From Thermanaerothrix daxensis (lineage in GTDB: Bacteria > Chloroflexota > Anaerolineae > Anaerolineales > Anaerolineaceae): a stretch of DNA of 64,000 bases. Shown one piece after another: positions 38,520-45,019 of this stretch. Each line of letters begins with the position of its first letter. The first letter of the stretch is position 1. The notes under the pieces are model-generated. The model was not told the DNA's origin. It ran no database searches and saw only the letters and a program-made list of their open reading frames with translations. The stretch covers positions 1-64,000 of the forward strand of contig NZ_LGKO01000005.1 in NCBI RefSeq assembly GCF_001306145.1, given 5' to 3'. The translations under genes and the position numbers were made by a program.

Positions 38520-38993
38520 TCACCATTGGCAAGATGCCCTCATCTTGGACATGGTTCGAATGATTAGTTTTCCAGCGCGCCGAGTGCTGTCTTCCCCTTC
38601 TGGATAAATGCGTCGTCCAATCGTAAGGTCAGCATTTTGTTGCCTATGGACCTCCAACATCGCGGGTATATCTTCTAAACAGTGCTGACCATCGGCGTCA
38701 ATGGTAATTAGGTAGGGAGTGGTGCATTGGCTGATGCCGGTTGTAAGGGCCGCTCCATAGCCTCGATTGACCTTGTGATGAATAATCCGAACAAGGGGGT
38801 GGTGAGCGTAATTGGCAAGGATTGCGGCTGTTTGATCGCGAGATCCATCGTTGACGATGATCAATTTCCAGTTATTGGTTTCGCAGAACTTAATAATCTC
38901 AGGCAGAACCCGTGGAAGTGCCTTTTCTTCGTTGAAGCAAGGCATCACAATGGTGAGTTCGTGGAGAGAGCTGTTGGGTTGGGTTTCTTCCAT
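38520..38993 (-). pseudogene. truncated GT2 glycosyltransferase (dolichyl-phosphate-mannose-synthase-like)
   Basis: The 157-codon frame starts as a normal polyprenyl-phosphate GT2: IVMPCFNEEKALPRVL, IIVNDGSRDQT, GYGAALTTGI, the DxD site in TIDADGQHC, LTIGRRIYPEGEDSTRR. It then stops after about 155 residues, where intact relatives continue for 70 to 170 more, including the acceptor loop and any membrane anchors. GC content is visibly below that of neighbouring genes. I infer a gene cut at its 3' end. It might keep partial activity, but this is unlikely. Confidence 0.7.
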
Positions 38994-39052: not shown

Positions 39053-39274
39053 TTATAGTGCGCCAGGTTCATACTGGTCATCCGAGTTAATAAAGCCAAT
39101 GATCTCGCCTTGGCAAATGCGCAGGCCTTTGTTGAGTGCATGGGATTGTCCTCGATCGGGTTCGTTCCACCACCGGATCCGGTCGGCGTATTTCTCTAAA
39201 ATTTCTTGGGTTCCATCTGATGAGCCACCGTCAAAAACCAAGTACTCCGGGTCGGGGTAATTTTGCCCTAACAT
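39053..39274 (-). pseudogene. internal fragment of a second GT2 glycosyltransferase
   Basis: The 73-residue frame begins at MLGQNYPDPEYLVFDGGSSD and ends at NSDDQYEPGAL, which corresponds to about residues 25-100 of family 2 transferases that have DGGSTDG and EPDRGQSDAxNKG strings. The first strand (PSFNxxxFLExTI) and everything after the DxD-containing segment are missing. The fragment starts 5 bases after the FGGY kinase stop codon. Together with the truncated gene at 38520 it marks a decayed region. Confidence 0.7.
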
Positions 39275-39278
39275 CTCT

Positions 39279-40838
39279 CTATTCGTTTCCCGCTTTCTCC
39301 ATCTCCTCCATTTCGGCGTAGAGCGGGCGGAGGCGGTCGTAGAGGCGACGGTAGATGCGGTGGTACAGGGCGTTGTAGCGCCGATGGTGTTCCGGGATGG
39401 GCTCAAAACGTTTGCCCGGACGGGTCATGGCTTGCGCAGCGCTCTCAAAATCGCGGTGCAGGCCCAGCCCTACCGCCACCACAATGGCGGCGCCAAGCCC
39501 CGAGGCTTCGTAGATATGTGGACGGGACGCCGGCAGGCCGAAGATATCGGCGGTCAGTTGCATGGCCGCTTCGCTTTGACTGCCACCCCCGGCCACGCGC
39601 AATTCACGGATCGGCACGCGCGTGCGCCGCACAATGCGTTCGCCCCCTTCGCGCAGGGCATAAGCCACCCCTTCCAGGATGGCGCGGTAGAGGTGGGCGC
39701 GGGTGTGCAGATCGCGAAAGCCAATCACCGCGCCGCGTGCCTCCGGTCCCGGTTTCTTCAGCCCGGGGGACCAGTAGGGCTGCAGGATCAATCCATCGGC
39801 ACCCGGCGGCACGGCATTGACCAGGCGATCAAAGAGCGTTTCCGGTTCCTGGCCCTGCTCCCGTGCCAGCGCTTCTTCGGGCTGGCCGAACTGACTGCGG
39901 AACCAGGTGACCATCCAATAGCCCCGGTACACCTGCACTTCCAGGCTGTAGGCACCGGGCATCGCCGAGGGATAGGGGGGTAGCAACGGCGTGACTTCCA
40001 GGTAGCGCTGCGAGGTCACGTTGATGGTGGCGGTAGTGCCGTAACTCAGGCAGGCCAGGTCCGGCAGCAGGCAACCGCTACCCAGCACTTCACAGGCTTT
40101 GTCCGCGGCGGTAGCAATCAGAGGCAGCCCTGCCGGTATCCCGGTGGCCTCAGCGGCGGTGGGGGTGATATACCCAAGGACCTCGCCCGGGCGGCGCAGC
40201 GGTGGCAGGGCTTCGCGTGGCAGTGGGACCACTTGCCATTTCCAGTCCCAGGCGGCGGCCCAGTCCTGCTTTTTGTAGTCGAAAGGCAGGTAGCCCACCT
40301 GGCAGCCGGTCGAATCCACCAATTCTCCCACCAGACGGTAGGTCAGGTAGCCGGAGAGCAAGACGTACTTGTGGGTCTGAGCCCAAATTTCGGGCTGGTG
40401 GGTGCGGATCCAGGAAGCCTCGGCCTCGGCCTGCAGGTAATTGACCGTGGCGGTCATCCCGCTGAGGCGGAAAGCCAACCCCCACAGCCCACCGATGGGC
40501 TTAAGCCCCGGCGTACGCCGCTGGTCCATCCACACAATGGCCGGACGTAGCGGGCGCAAGTCGCGATCCAGGTTAATGACCGTGGCACGCTGGGTGGTCA
40601 GCCCCACACCACGGATGCTGGCCTTATTCACGCCTGGCTGCTGCCATAACTTCTGGCAGGCAGAGCAAATGGCCTGCCAGAAAACTTCGGGGTCCTGTTC
40701 GGCCCAGCCGGGTGCAGGGGAGTAGTAGGGTTCGATTTTTTGCTGTCCTTTGGCCAGCAAATTGCCCTGCAAATCAAAAAGAAGCGCGCGGGCGCTCTGG
40801 GTGCCCATATCAATGGCCAGCAGTGTCGGTTCGCTCAT
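39279..40838 (-). CDS. FGGY family carbohydrate kinase
   Basis: The 519-residue protein has both FGGY domains: the phosphate loop [48 protein letters not shown] (the catalytic Asp region), [12 protein letters not shown], and [23 protein letters not shown] near the C-terminus. The family phosphorylates glycerol, xylulose, gluconate and similar polyols. Because GlpD and an alkyl-DHAP-synthase-like protein share its operon, glycerol, dihydroxyacetone or a related three-carbon compound is plausible; the sequence alone does not fix it. GGGAGG lies before the ATG, 1 base after the stop of the upstream gene. Last gene of the operon. Confidence 0.88.
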
Positions 40839-40839
40839 C

Positions 40840-42582
40840 TTACCCTCCCTGGTTTTTACCCCAGCGTTTAGCGGCTTGCTCCGGGGTCATATCCAGTCCC
40901 AGCGTACCCCCCGGATTGAGAATGTGGTGGGGATCAAAGTAATTCTTCAGGGCGCGCAGGACACCCATGGCGGTGGAATCCAATTGTTCTACCAACCAGG
41001 GGGCCGTCTGCTTACCGACCCCGTGGTGGTGGCTAACCGCTGCACCGCTTGTTTGAATGGCTTCGATCAGGGCATATTGTACATCCAGATAGTCGGCGAT
41101 GGAGGTGTAGGGGAGGATGAAGATGAAGTACAGGTTGGCGCCCTGGGGATAGACATGGGAGATGTGGGTCATGACCAGGGGGACCCCGTGCGCCTGCGCG
41201 GCGGCACGCACCGCCTGGTAAGTGATTGGGAGGCGCGTCCAGGTACCTGCACATTCGAGTGTGTCAATGACAACGCCGAAATCCAGCAAGTCCTCGCGCA
41301 AATAGGGGTCGCGAAAGCGCTCACGCTCCCAGCGCTGCGTGATGGGCAGAAGGCTGAGGTTAAGAGCGCCGTGATCGCCGCAGATTATGCGGATGCGTCG
41401 TTGCAAATGACTGCAAAAGCCGCGTTCGCCATCGCAGGAGCCGATGAGCAGGCAACGCTCCCAGGGGCGGTAGCCCAACCGGGTAAGTAGCCCATCCAGG
41501 GGGGTGCCGGCCAGGCCGTACATGTGCATGGCCACCTCGGTTTCGTCCCCGTCAGAAAGGCGGAAGATGGAGGGAGCACCGGCCTCATCCTGCATGATCT
41601 CGCGCAAGGCGGCCTGACCCTGCTCCCAGGACTTGAAGAGGAAAGCAAAGCGGCGCGTGTTTTCGGGCTGGTAGCGGAAAATGCGCAGGGTGGCATTCAG
41701 CAGGATTCCATAGGCCCCTTCACTGCCGATCATAATCTGGTCCAGGTCGGGCCCAATCGCGGCGCGTGGATAGGGGGGCGTCCGCAGTCGCCCAACCGGG
41801 GTGGCGTATTCCTGTGCCAGCACCAGATCTTCGATCTTACCGTAGTAGGTGGAGTTCTGGCCGGCCGAACGGGTGACAATCCAACCTCCCAGACTGGAAT
41901 ATTCGAAAGATTGGGGAAAATGCCCGCAGGTGTAGCGTCGTCTGGCTGCGAAACGCTGGGGGGCCTGGTTGAGCGCCGCTTCCAGGTCAGGGCCACGGAT
42001 GCCGGCTTCGGCGGTCACGGTTTGATCGGTTTCGCTAAAGTCCAGAATGCGGTTTAGGTGGCGGCTTAGATCGAGCGCTACCCCACCCAGCACGGCTTCA
42101 CGTCCGCGGGTGACCGTGGAGCCACCGCCGTACACATAGAGTGGAATGCGCTGGGCATGGCAGTAATCCACAATTGCCTGGACCTCATTCGGTGTGCGGG
42201 GACTGAGCACGGCGGCGGGCAGGTTTTCCAGAATGCCCAGGCGCAGGCGCAGTTGATCTACCATGCCCGCACCGTAGGAGGCGCGTACCCGGCTAAAAGG
42301 ATCCGTCCGCACATTCTCTGCACCCACCAGATCGCGCAGGGCGTTCAGGTGGGTACCCTCTAGAGGGATGGGAAGCGCTTCCGGCAAGGGACGTAGCCCC
42401 AGCCATTCTGGGGTTGGCTCGGTTCGGAAGGCGATCCCCAGGCGGTCCTGCAAGAGGCGCACCAGGCCGAGGTTGGGGTGCTTGAACGTGTGTGGGTCGC
42501 CCCATTTGAAGATGGCACGAAATGAGCCGGGAGGGGGCGGGCTTTCAATCCAGCGGGGCGCGGAGACGGAGTTGGGTGTCAT
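40840..42582 (-). CDS. FAD-binding oxidase of the alkyl-DHAP synthase (AGPS)/YgcU type
   Basis: The 580-residue flavoprotein has a PCMH FAD-binding domain (about 135-320: [46 protein letters not shown]) and a C-terminal cap with SHHHGVG at 517-523, the AGPS signature, and LYFIFILPY where AGPS has its Tyr-rich strand. AGPS swaps the acyl chain of acyl-DHAP for an alkyl chain; bacterial relatives may instead oxidise hydroxy acids. E. coli pairs a similar protein (YgcU) with an FGGY kinase (YgcE). Here it lies between glpD and the kinase, with AGGAGG before its ATG. Confidence 0.85.
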
Positions 42583-42600
42583 GCAAACCTCCTGAGGGGA

Positions 42601-44190
42601 TTAGCCGGTTGGACGAGGGCTGTAAAAACGCCACCAGGTTTCACGATAGGCATTGACCTCTGCTTCCCAGCGAGCATCTTCCCAACCTAATTCGGTTTGT
42701 ACCAGAGCCCGAATGCGGTCGAGGTGGTCCATTCCGCCGTTGGGCAGGAGTAGCCCCAGGCGCACCCGGCGCAGGAGCAGATCTTCCAAGTGCACCACTC
42801 CCTCATGGCGGGCTGCCCAGCGCACTTCTGCCCACACGTTGGGCAGGGTAGGAATGGGTTGCCACTCTGCAGGGGGCATTTCGGCAAGAAACTGGGGCAA
42901 GTCGGGGCCGAGTCGCCCGGCCAGGTAAGCCAAGGTTTCAAAATCGAGATCGGGGGCTGCTACTTCCGCCGGGGCAGGGGAAAAGAAGGAGGCGCGCGGG
43001 CGAGGAACTGCGCGCAGGTTCAGGTATGGAGCGGCCAGGCGCAACGTGTCCAGTGCCATGCGCCGGAAGGTGGTCAATTTTCCCCCGGTGATGGTGATCA
43101 GCCCTTGCTCGTCCCAGACGCTGTGGGCACGAGATTCCTTGGAAGGATGCTCCGCCCCACTGCGTATAATCGGGCGCAAGCCGGCAAAAGTGGCGATGAG
43201 ATCCTGATCGCCAGCCTCTACGCCGGGGAAGACGGTGTGCAGGGCTTCCAGCAAGTAGTCAATCTCCTCAGAGGTGGCAAACGGTTCGCGATCTTCCCAC
43301 TCTTTGGGGTGATCCAGGTCGGTGGTGCCGAGCAGGGTTACCCCCTCCCAGGGGATGGCGAACATGGCGCGGCGATCGCGCGGGTGAAGCAGGGTAACGG
43401 CTTCGCTGAGTGGGAAGCGTGCATGGGGGAAGACCAGGTGGCTACCGCGAGTGCGGCGCAGGCGAGGAACCCCGCCGACTTGCTGACGCAGGTCATCCGT
43501 CCAGGGGCCGGTAGCGTTGATCACCACCCGGGCGCGTATTTCAGCGGTGCGTTCGTGGGGGTCGGCTTCATCCCGCACCACGGCGCCGCACACCTGCCCG
43601 GAGGCGGTGCGTAACAGTGCAGTGGCACGGGCGTATGAAAGGGCGACAGCCCCGGCCTGAACGGCCTCACGTAGCAGGCGCAACACCAGGCGCGAATCAT
43701 CCACCCGTGCATCTCCATAATAAACTCCACCTGCCAGGTCGGTGGGGTTGAGCCAGGGACAGCGTGCCAGCAGATTCTGCGGGGTGAGTTTTCCGTGCTG
43801 CCAGCGCAGGGCCATGCCATCGTAGATAAGTACCCCCATCTGAAATTGGCGCAAGGATGCGCGGTAATAGGGGTAAACCGGCAGGACAAAGGAGAGCGGC
43901 GTCACCAGGTGCGGTGCGGCACGCAGCAGCCATTCCCGCTCGCGTACCGACTCGAAGGTGACATTGAACTGACGATTGCGCAGATAGCGGAAACCCCCAT
44001 GCACCAGTTTTGAGGAACGACTGGAAGTACCGAAAGAAAAATCGCGAGCCTCAATCAGCAAGGCGCGCAGTCCGTAAAACGTGCACAAGCGCAATAAACC
44101 GGCCCCGGTCACCCCGCCCCCGATGATGAGCACATCCCAGGGGCGATCCAGAGATGCCCAGACGGCATCGCGCCAACCACGAGACCACAT
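42601..44190 (-). CDS. glpD: FAD-dependent glycerol-3-phosphate dehydrogenase
   Basis: Oxidises sn-glycerol-3-phosphate to dihydroxyacetone phosphate, passing electrons to the quinone pool or another acceptor. The 529-residue protein has the FAD motif GGGVTGAG (24-31), TSSRSSKLVHGGFRYL, GVYYGDARVDDSRLVL, INATGPWTDD, RGSHLVFP, TDLDHP, GLRPII and GGKLTTFRRMA, all typical of GlpD/GlpA. The C-terminal DAO_C domain is present. The ATG at 44190 was chosen because AGGAGG stands 8 bases before it; the longer frame has poor spacing. It lies 52 bases after the FadR-type gene. Confidence 0.93.
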   Translation of the reverse strand: MWSRGWRDAVWASLDRPWDVLIIGGGVTGAGLLRLCTFYGLRALLIEARDFSFGTSSRSSKLVHGGFRYLRNRQFNVTFESVREREWLLRAAPHLVTPLSFVLPVYPYYRASLRQFQMGVLIYDGMALRWQHGKLTPQNLLARCPWLNPTDLAGGVYYGDARVDDSRLVLRLLREAVQAGAVALSYARATALLRTASGQVCGAVVRDEADPHERTAEIRARVVINATGPWTDDLRQQVGGVPRLRRTRGSHLVFPHARFPLSEAVTLLHPRDRRAMFAIPWEGVTLLGTTDLDHPKEWEDREPFATSEEIDYLLEALHTVFPGVEAGDQDLIATFAGLRPIIRSGAEHPSKESRAHSVWDEQGLITITGGKLTTFRRMALDTLRLAAPYLNLRAVPRPRASFFSPAPAEVAAPDLDFETLAYLAGRLGPDLPQFLAEMPPAEWQPIPTLPNVWAEVRWAARHEGVVHLEDLLLRRVRLGLLLPNGGMDHLDRIRALVQTELGWEDARWEAEVNAYRETWWRFYSPRPTG

Positions 44191-44242
44191 AATCATAACC
44201 TCCTGAAGGGGTAAAAGCACGAAATGAAGGCGAGCGAGGGCT

Positions 44243-44953
44243 TCAGAGCGCCGAATTCCCGTTGCGAACTGTGGCTTCCCACAGGCGGATGCTCTCCAGC
44301 ATGACGGCTCGTGTCAGGGCTTCGGCGGCATCCGGCTGATTCTGGCGGGCATATTCGAGCAAGCCCTCATAATAGGCGCGCGAGCGGGCGCGGGCGGCGG
44401 CGCGAGCGAAGTAGCGCCGGGCCATGCTCAGGTAGAGTTCGCGAAACCCGTTGAGAATGAGCGTGAATACCGGGTTGCCCGAAAGCACGGTCAGAGTGTG
44501 ATGCAACTGCCAATCTGCGGAAGCAAAGGCATCTGCTTCGTCGGGGACTCCACACAAGGTTTCCAGCAGGGCTTCTACCTCACCGCGGGCGCGCTCGAAA
44601 GCCAGGCGACAGTAGGCCGGTGTCAGCAGGACACGTACCTGCAGTAAATCCGGGATGAACGTGGGGGGAAGGGCTTCGGGGTGGTTGATGAGCGCGCTCA
44701 GGATGTTGAGGTTGCCCTCGCGCCAGTAGTCGCGCACACGAGTGGGCTTGCCGTGGTGAATCTCGATCCAGCCATCCCGCGCCAGGCGTTGGAGTGCCTC
44801 ACGTAGCGTGGGACGGGTAATGCCCAGGCGGGCCGCCAGATCACGTTCGTTGGGCAGGGTGCTACCTGGGGGGAACGTGCCGGTGAGAATGGCTTCGATG
44901 AGGCGGTTTTCGGCGATTTCGGCAGGGCGGGGGGGAGGGGGCAGCCAATCCAT
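44243..44953 (-). CDS. GntR family (FadR-like) transcriptional regulator
   Basis: The 236-residue protein has a GntR winged helix at about 15-75 (STLPNERDLAARLGITRPTLREALQRLARDG) and an all-helical ligand domain that resembles FadR more than generic FCD proteins: GNLNILSALINHPEALPPTFIPDLLQVRVLL is the conserved linker string in FadR. FadR senses acyl-CoA. This and the AGPS-like gene hint at lipid-derived substrates. A palindrome at 44969-44984 between its promoter and start codon is its likely operator. First gene of the glpD operon. Confidence 0.88.
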   Translation of the reverse strand: MDWLPPPPRPAEIAENRLIEAILTGTFPPGSTLPNERDLAARLGITRPTLREALQRLARDGWIEIHHGKPTRVRDYWREGNLNILSALINHPEALPPTFIPDLLQVRVLLTPAYCRLAFERARGEVEALLETLCGVPDEADAFASADWQLHHTLTVLSGNPVFTLILNGFRELYLSMARRYFARAAARARSRAYYEGLLEYARQNQPDAAEALTRAVMLESIRLWEATVRNGNSAL

Positions 44954-44968
44954 AAGAGGCTCCTGATA

Positions 44969-44984
44969 GGTAAGAGGTCATACC
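44969..44984. promoter_or_regulatory. probable operator of the FadR-like regulator
   Basis: GGTAAGAGGTCATACC reads as GGTAnGAnnTCnTACC, symmetric in 12 of 16 bases, and lies over the predicted start site of the regulator's own promoter, 15 bases before its ATG. Confidence 0.6.
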
Positions 44985-44990
44985 AGTTAC

Positions 44991-45019
44991 AGTATAGTGA
45001 AGTCGGACCCAAAAAGCAA
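44991..45019 (-). promoter_or_regulatory. promoter of the fadR-glpD operon
   Basis: On the minus strand TTGCTT (45019-45014) and TATACT (44996-44991) have a 17-base spacer, directly upstream of the palindrome at 44984. Confidence 0.6.

Follow-up and report, generated by a model that had tools for sequence, protein, structure and literature searches.

A candidate oxygen-independent route for 1-O-alkylglycerol breakdown in a FadR-linked operon of Thermanaerothrix daxensis

A four-gene operon and its proposed function

The window analysed here is a stretch of 64,000 nucleotides from Thermanaerothrix daxensis (contig NZ_LGKO01000005.1, positions 1 to 64,000; the genome comprises 3.0 Mb in 6 contigs). 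On its minus strand, positions 39279-44953 carry an operon of a FadR-family regulator, a GlpD-like dehydrogenase, a flavoprotein of the AGPS family and an FGGY kinase. We propose, with the chances about evenly poised, that it encodes an O2-independent route for the breakdown of 1-O-alkylglycerols, the remnants of ether lipids. The kinase would phosphorylate 1-O-alkyl-sn-glycerol at sn-3, and the GlpD-like enzyme would oxidise the alkyl-glycerol-3-phosphate (alkyl-G3P) to 1-O-alkyl-dihydroxyacetone phosphate (alkyl-DHAP). AGPS works through a flavin adduct and its reaction is reversible; in the reverse direction, the flavin of the AGPS-like protein would attack C1 and expel the fatty alcohol, and the DHAP unit would pass to water or to a fatty acid, giving DHAP or acyl-DHAP. 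FadR, bound to an operator over the start site, would keep the operon repressed until a long-chain ligand signalling lipid breakdown releases it. We infer all substrates and the direction of reaction. The order of kinase, GlpD and reversed AGPS had been suggested by a first-pass annotation of this DNA; it fits the conserved gene set, the functions of which reappear elsewhere with dehydrogenases and kinases of other types.

The regulator gene (44243..44953) comes first in the operon, followed by the genes for the GlpD-like FAD-dependent G3P-type dehydrogenase (42601..44220), the AGPS-family flavoprotein, a candidate alkyl-DHAP cleaver (40840..42582), and an orphan FGGY kinase (39279..40838), all on the minus strand and separated by gaps of 22, 18 and 1 nt. 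Pfam assigns FadR_C (4e-35) and GntR to the first protein, DAO and DAO_C to the second, FAD_binding_4 and FAD-oxidase_C to the third, and FGGY_N and FGGY_C to the fourth. The regulator passes the NCBIfam model NF003444 (216.8 versus 189 bits) and misses the other FadR model (207.4 versus 249.2), and its best solved relative is 1hw1 (1.5e-49). The other three proteins miss every NCBIfam cut-off, so their exact functions are not given by annotation. Because the four-gene arrangement recurs in related genomes, it lies far beyond chance. All four genes and their families are thus as the first-pass annotation had described them.

The flavoprotein belongs to the AGPS family

In a single-sequence search of solved structures, the best match of the AGPS-like protein is AGPS itself (2uuu, 4.6e-60), and a 46-sequence profile gives 416.5 bits to 2uuu versus 154.7 bits for the best other family, D-lactate dehydrogenase. 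The AlphaFold model (pLDDT 88.8, pTM 0.88) superposes on mammalian AGPS (5ae3) with a VIA Z score of 37.8 and an rmsd of 1.9 Å over 501 residues, spanning residues 22-562. Ranks 1-11 of the structure matches are all AGPS, with matches beginning at residues 16-23; D-lactate dehydrogenases rank after them (Z 32.3), their matches beginning only at residue 74, as the N-terminal AGPS part is absent.

Nine positions of guinea-pig AGPS were compared. Seven are identical in the window protein (H300, R419, R515, Y578, H615, H616 and H617), while D303 is replaced by Q and T309 by S. We take H300, R515 and the histidines 615-617 to be catalytic or binding positions, and PDB titles name Y578F and R419H as AGPS mutants. 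The three histidines align with the HHH of the motif SHHHGVG (residues 517-523; 41014..41034, minus strand). The seven identical positions are also kept in 22/22 rows of the Chloroflexota clade and in 69/69 rows of a wider clade. By comparison, the R515 equivalent is an arginine in just one of six YgcU-type rows, is lost in GlcD, and reads M, M, K and M in four AGPS-like proteins from polyether/dioxane plasmids; the GlcD reference also lacks equivalents of R419, Y578, H615 and H616. A quick tree places the window protein in a 33-row clade (support 100) spanning Chloroflexota, Clostridia, Spirochaetes and others, with YgcU and eukaryotic AGPS outside it, on long branches of unsure placement. 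Its named relatives at 55-61% are metagenome-assembled genomes of Anaerolineae/Chloroflexota. By full-length match, in sequence and in the predicted fold, and by its binding and catalytic positions, the protein is a member of the AGPS family; the earlier AGPS reading of the SHHHGVG flavoprotein holds for sequence, fold and active site.

The kinase departs from glycerol kinase

The best solved relatives of the kinase are a glycerol kinase (2zf5, 9.8e-45) and an AI-2 kinase (5ya0, 1.4e-44), and its best NCBIfam model is XylB (TIGR01312; 263.9 bits, below the cut-off of 380.25). The glycerol-kinase signature is described as R83, E84, Y135, D245 and F270 (PMC3245297). Aligned with E. coli GlpK, the window kinase keeps two of these five, R83 and D245, with E84 replaced by A, Y135 by L and F270 by T; D10 and W103 are also kept. 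R83 and D245 are retained in all 13 Chloroflexota orthologues, every one of which has L in place of Y135 and T in place of F270. A further 54 AGPS-linked kinases all retain R83, D245, D10 and W103 (54/54); E84 is replaced by D in 46 of them and F270 by T in 48. A canonical GlpK with all five signature residues is encoded elsewhere in the genome, on contig C3, near a DAO-family protein that is 29% like the operon's GlpD-like protein. Since the operon kinase has lost signature residues and a canonical GlpK is present on C3, the sequences make it unlikely that the operon is the cell's ordinary glycerol pathway.

The dehydrogenase has a G3P dehydrogenase as its best solved relative (3da1, 1.7e-71), and its GGKLTT(Y/F)R and G(V/L)RP regions align with E. 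coli GlpD. We call it GlpD-like because the GlpD equivalog cut-offs are not reached (257.3 versus 360 bits for NF008899; 245.9 versus 352 for NF009906).

The gene set recurs with exchangeable partners

A contig search with the AGPS-like protein yielded 80 loci, for which similarity to AGPS was the sole criterion. Their genes were called by a mechanical open-reading-frame script that overlooked a few AGPS genes hidden by longer, overlapping frames, and neighbours were counted by tblastn within 6.5 kb of AGPS. A G3P-dehydrogenase-type flavoprotein occurs in 68/80 loci, an FGGY kinase in 60/80 and both in 52/80; the 52 loci with full flanks hold 47 with the dehydrogenase type, 42 with the kinase, 38 with both and one with neither. 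The dehydrogenase near AGPS is GlpD-type in 10/80 and GlpA-type in 59/80, as in locus L076, where a GlpA-type protein (DAO and Fer2_BFD) is followed by a Pyr_redox_2 protein and DUF1667. In 15 Chloroflexota relatives of the window clade, GlpD lies near AGPS in 14 and the kinase in nine. The AGPS itself can also differ: loci L054 and L056-L059 have the same FadR/GlpD/FGGY operon with a distant AGPS paralogue (31-37% identity). Across the eight rows of this paralogue group, H616 is Q, and R419, R515, Y578, H615 and H617 are kept, each in 8/8.

In Tsukamurella and Streptomyces fungicidicus, an AGPS-like gene lies beside GlpD, a TetR regulator and a lipid kinase (DAGK_cat/YegS_C), the gene of which overlaps the end of the AGPS gene in Tsukamurella. 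A lipid kinase beside AGPS and GlpD in two actinobacteria points to a lipid glycerol as the kinase substrate. We presume the same gene order in Rv2249c-Rv2252 of Mycobacterium tuberculosis. Nonomuraea (L178) differs in having GlpD and AGPS with no DAGK match, and L179 has AGPS only. A DAGK-type gene near FadR in L041, with no FGGY gene nearby, is the sole case among the scanned non-actinobacterial loci; by our estimate it is about what chance would give, and we do not count it as support. The recurrence of functions with exchangeable proteins is the strongest hint of a pathway that would phosphorylate a glycerol lipid, oxidise C2 and act on the C1 substituent.

Several further observations were made at AGPS loci. 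In the GlpA-type protein of Clostridia, a BON-like domain at the N terminus was found in 2/8 members (best 9.3e-4, with member 1 below the curated cut-off) and was left unused. HAD-type and acyl-CoA-ligase-type genes adjoin AGPS in six related Clostridial loci (L102, L107, L115, L099, L093 and L116), followed in L102 by Trk potassium transport genes, and L120 has a FakA-like gene; both are suggestive and too narrow to use. A second AGPS-like group (L061 and L064; about 475-480 aa, near 30% identity) occurs with an FGGY kinase, GlpD and further DAO and CCG-domain proteins, in L061 also with ABC permease genes, and probably serves a different, sugar-type pathway. AGPS-like genes also lie in plasmid clusters (L151:8974-10641, L153:8974-10629, L155:6974-8626 and L152:9253-10596), mostly beside GST and acyl-CoA-ligase-type genes. 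The hosts, polyether/dioxane users and others, are Xanthobacter dioxanivorans, Sphingopyxis macrogoltabida, Aminobacter and Mycobacterium dioxanotrophicus, and these proteins are possible ether-cleaving enzymes. In Moraxella osloensis and Acinetobacter towneri plasmids, a cluster with identical protein accessions (L181:6752-11107 and L182:6752-11107) lies near Tn3-family transposases; it encodes an acyl-CoA synthetase and a gamma carbonic anhydrase together with an AGPS-like protein.

FadR is linked to AGPS and to a conserved predicted operator

FadR_C is single-copy in the genome, and among 14 control genomes it is present just in E. coli. For 61 relatives (own genome included), cut-offs of more than 90 bits for FadR_C and more than 230 bits for AGPS were set after the scores had been seen, leaving out the weaker FadR_C matches of G002, G008, G015, G022, G026, G027 and G028. 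Strong FadR_C matches occur in 23 genomes, all with strong AGPS; four have AGPS alone and 34 neither (Fisher 4.7e-13, with post hoc cut-offs and related genomes). Both genes share one contig in 19 of the 23. Across 201 genomes of the phylum, FadR_C (1e-20) is found in 11, ten of them with AGPS (1e-60), while 16 have AGPS alone and 174 neither (Fisher 2.3e-9, six of the 11 FadR_C genomes being from one family). In the eleventh, G193, AGPS adjoins FadR and is cut by the contig end.

Directly upstream of FadR, 35 nt 5' of its start codon, lies a predicted operator, AACTGGTATGACCTCTT (44972..44988, minus strand), which is conserved 5' of FadR in related loci. Sites of the TGGTNNGACC type, which we take to be the E. 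coli FadR operator type, precede the genes in the window and in related loci. A first FadR set of 26 loci represents 24 distinct genomes (L071 and L072 repeat the genomes of L043 and L041). The motif is present in 25 of the 26, the remaining L058 having a copy with one mismatch; the L044 copy has two mismatches. When AACTGGTNNGACCWCTT was searched over the 3.0 Mb, the operator was the sole perfect match and the next best had two mismatches; at up to three mismatches there were 54 + 42 matches, below the 136 + 173 of a reversed-pattern control. In L048, where FadR lies on another contig, perfect operator copies precede GlpD by 65 nt and AGPS by 94 nt. No copy with 0 or 1 mismatch was found in the other scanned loci without FadR. 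Twelve stretches from the phylum-wide sample, which played no part in defining the motif and are partly dependent on each other or on the first set, gave the same pattern: all nine with FadR have an operator with at most one mismatch on one strand, and the three with AGPS and without FadR have none.

A wider FadR regulon was considered and set aside, as the core CTGGTNNGACC has 25 matches versus 39 + 52 for the reversed pattern, hence no enrichment, and the full 17-mer occurs perfectly once. A three-mismatch match at C3:282993, near the canonical GlpK, was taken as chance. In most loci the operator is followed by ACC(A), giving with AACTGGT a longer imperfect inverted repeat (window 44968-44988), and a second overlapping half-site is possible there.

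The putative promoter, TTGCTT-17 nt-TATACT (44991..45019, minus strand), is the top-scoring hexamer pair of the upstream stretch, from a lax scan that takes the best pair per stretch. The inferred -10 hexamer begins 8 or 12 bp upstream of the operator in 17/25 loci (15/23 without the two duplicates), which would put the operator over the transcription start and suggests a repressor position. A stricter generic scan (at least 4/6 for each hexamer) finds no sigma-70 site before FadR, TTGCTT matching 3/6. FadR control of the operon, at which the first-pass annotation had hinted, is backed by this conserved, predicted site.

For FadR, the ligand residues G216, S219 and W223 and the DNA contacts R35, T44, R45, T46, T47, R49 and H65 have been described (PMC4259882). 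In an alignment of 24 rows (L071 and L072 dropped as duplicates), T44, R45, T47 and R49 are kept in 24/24, R35 in 23/24 and H65 in 15/24, and T46 is P in 21/24; the window FadR keeps the DNA-contact residues except T46. S219, W223, R105, Y179 and Y193 are invariant (24/24). The ligand may be an acyl-CoA or a different long-chain compound, for example alkyl-DHAP.

Breakdown weighed against other readings

The main rival is ether-lipid synthesis or acyl-to-alkyl remodelling with AGPS acting forward, which we consider unlikely. In one variant GlpD makes DHAP for AGPS; in the other the kinase acts on monoacylglycerol, the resulting lysophosphatidate is oxidised by GlpD to acyl-DHAP, and AGPS exchanges the acyl group for an alkyl group, a route that involves the same three enzymes with no need of a DHAP acyltransferase. 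AGPS is biosynthetic in animals, the homologue MXAN_1676 is described as a minor contributor to the ether lipids of Myxococcus xanthus (PMC9131029), and GPD2 is reported to supply DHAP for ether lipids in tumour cells (PMC9830446); the DAGK-type kinase fits monoacylglycerol equally well. However, the operon has no fatty acyl-CoA reductase (FAR) or acyltransferase partner, unlike that of Myxococcus, where the bacterial AGPS homologue is accompanied by a FAR1/GNPAT-like fusion and an NAD-dependent epimerase-family protein in what is described as a biosynthetic operon (PMC9131029). The best FAR-type matches (PF07993) in the T. daxensis genome reach 60 bits, the frames being some 310-390 aa long, as for ordinary epimerases, which is not conclusive. 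An operator over the start suggests repression, as for the E. coli fad (breakdown) genes, although synthesis is still compatible with it. DHAP is a glycolytic intermediate, and its supply would need no dedicated G3P oxidase. Breakdown is favoured over synthesis because a G3P-type oxidase is dedicated to AGPS even though glycolysis provides DHAP, because the kinase is unlike glycerol kinase, because no FAR or acyltransferase is linked, in contrast to Myxococcus, and because FadR control appears to be of the repressor type.

The substrate might instead be a different glycerol substituted at C1, such as a glycosyl- or sulfo-glycerol or a short glycerol ether, which would be broken down by the same three steps with a leaving group that is not a lipid. 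The kinase pocket differs from that of GlpK at residues that contact glycerol, AGPS-like genes occur with CoA-ligase and GST genes in plasmid clusters of polyether/dioxane users, and Clostridial examples lack FadR; against this stand the Chloroflexota FadR with its operator and conserved S219, W223, R105, Y179 and Y193, the lipid-kinase partner in two actinobacteria, and the R515 equivalent, which the window clade keeps and the polyether-type proteins do not. We regard this reading as rather improbable. A sugar or 2-hydroxyacid pathway, pairing a GlcD- or lactate-dehydrogenase-type enzyme with a pentulose-type kinase, could draw on XylB as the best kinase model and on the second AGPS-like group with its FGGY kinases beside ABC permease genes. 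It is made very improbable by the XylB score below cut-off, the profile preference for AGPS over D-lactate dehydrogenase, the lack of R419, Y578, H615 and H616 equivalents in GlcD, and the lactate dehydrogenase matches that begin only after the N-terminal AGPS part. That the operon is a redundant set for glycerol catabolism, to which the flavoprotein is incidental, is hardly credible: the kinase and GlpD-like protein do resemble glycerol enzymes, but three of five GlpK signature residues are lost, a canonical GlpK exists elsewhere, and AGPS recurs with kinase or dehydrogenase partners across the 80 loci.

Several findings weigh against ether-lipid breakdown as the operon's function. The FadR ligand residue G216 is Met in 24/24 rows and R213 is kept in just 14/24. 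The kinase is missing near AGPS in 20/80 loci and, outside that count, in L165-L169, L172 and L174-L176 (contig ends truncate L168 and L169); module members without a nearby kinase gene could begin at alkyl-G3P. The scanned Clostridial examples carry GntR-UTRA and TetR regulators, so acyl control is not general. The L038 locus, where AGPS is unlinked to FadR and the genome of which is repeated in L068, has no operator within two mismatches. In the loci inspected there is no recurrent linkage to a lipase, a fatty-alcohol dehydrogenase or a transporter, and the roles described for AGPS are biosynthetic (PMC9131029; PMC9830446).

Comparison with known systems and implications

The likeness to eukaryotic AGPS (2uuu, 4bby) lies in the shared fold and in H300, R419, R515, Y578 and the HHH; the differences are an identity of about 28% and a bacterial operon with a kinase and a G3P-type oxidase and no acyltransferase or FAR partner. 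AGMO does the job proposed for the operon, release of the 1-O-alkyl chain, and a review presents this O2-requiring enzyme as the sole alkylglycerol-degrading enzyme known so far (PMC7911779). AGMO requires O2 and tetrahydrobiopterin by the same account (PMC7911779), whereas the operon is without an oxygenase and occurs in many anaerobe lineages. With E. coli FadR and its fad operators, the window FadR has FadR_C, DNA-contact residues and the operator type in common; it differs in the Met at G216 and in its link to a single operon, the genome having just one perfect site.

The first-pass annotation had also pointed to E. coli YgcU/YgcE, which likewise combines an AGPS-like protein and an FGGY kinase in one region. 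The analogy stands in part for the kinase, as YgcE shares Q14, R83, W103, D245 and K246 with the window kinase. It holds less well for YgcU, which in the quick tree lies outside the window clade on a 3.64-long branch of unsure placement, and for the gene surroundings, which in E. coli are ygcQR, ygcS and ygcN with no GlpD; the pair was not adopted as a close model.

More tentatively, and with somewhat less than even confidence, the reading may be extended to O2-independent ether-lipid cleavage in anaerobes (Chloroflexota, Clostridia, Spirochaetes and some deltaproteobacteria), in which the ether-bond maker AGPS would serve as breaker behind an alkylglycerol kinase and a G3P-type dehydrogenase. 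In a wider form, AGPS-like flavoproteins, those of the polyether/dioxane plasmids included, may be general ether-exchange enzymes acting beside a carbonyl. In open-licence titles and abstract starts on bacterial alkylglycerol and ether-lipid breakdown, we found no description of such a pathway; the protein families are each known, and it is their combination as an O2-free ether-lipid route that is undescribed there. If the proposal is true, three enzymes that can be purified would allow a direct test of how anaerobes in guts, digesters and sediments could recycle ether lipids. FadR and its operator would then also be placed outside the gamma-proteobacteria, to which FadR has been called exclusive (PMC4259882).

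Directly 3' of the operon, two glycosyltransferase-like frame pieces (window 38520-38993 and 39053-39406, minus strand; family judged by eye) look truncated.

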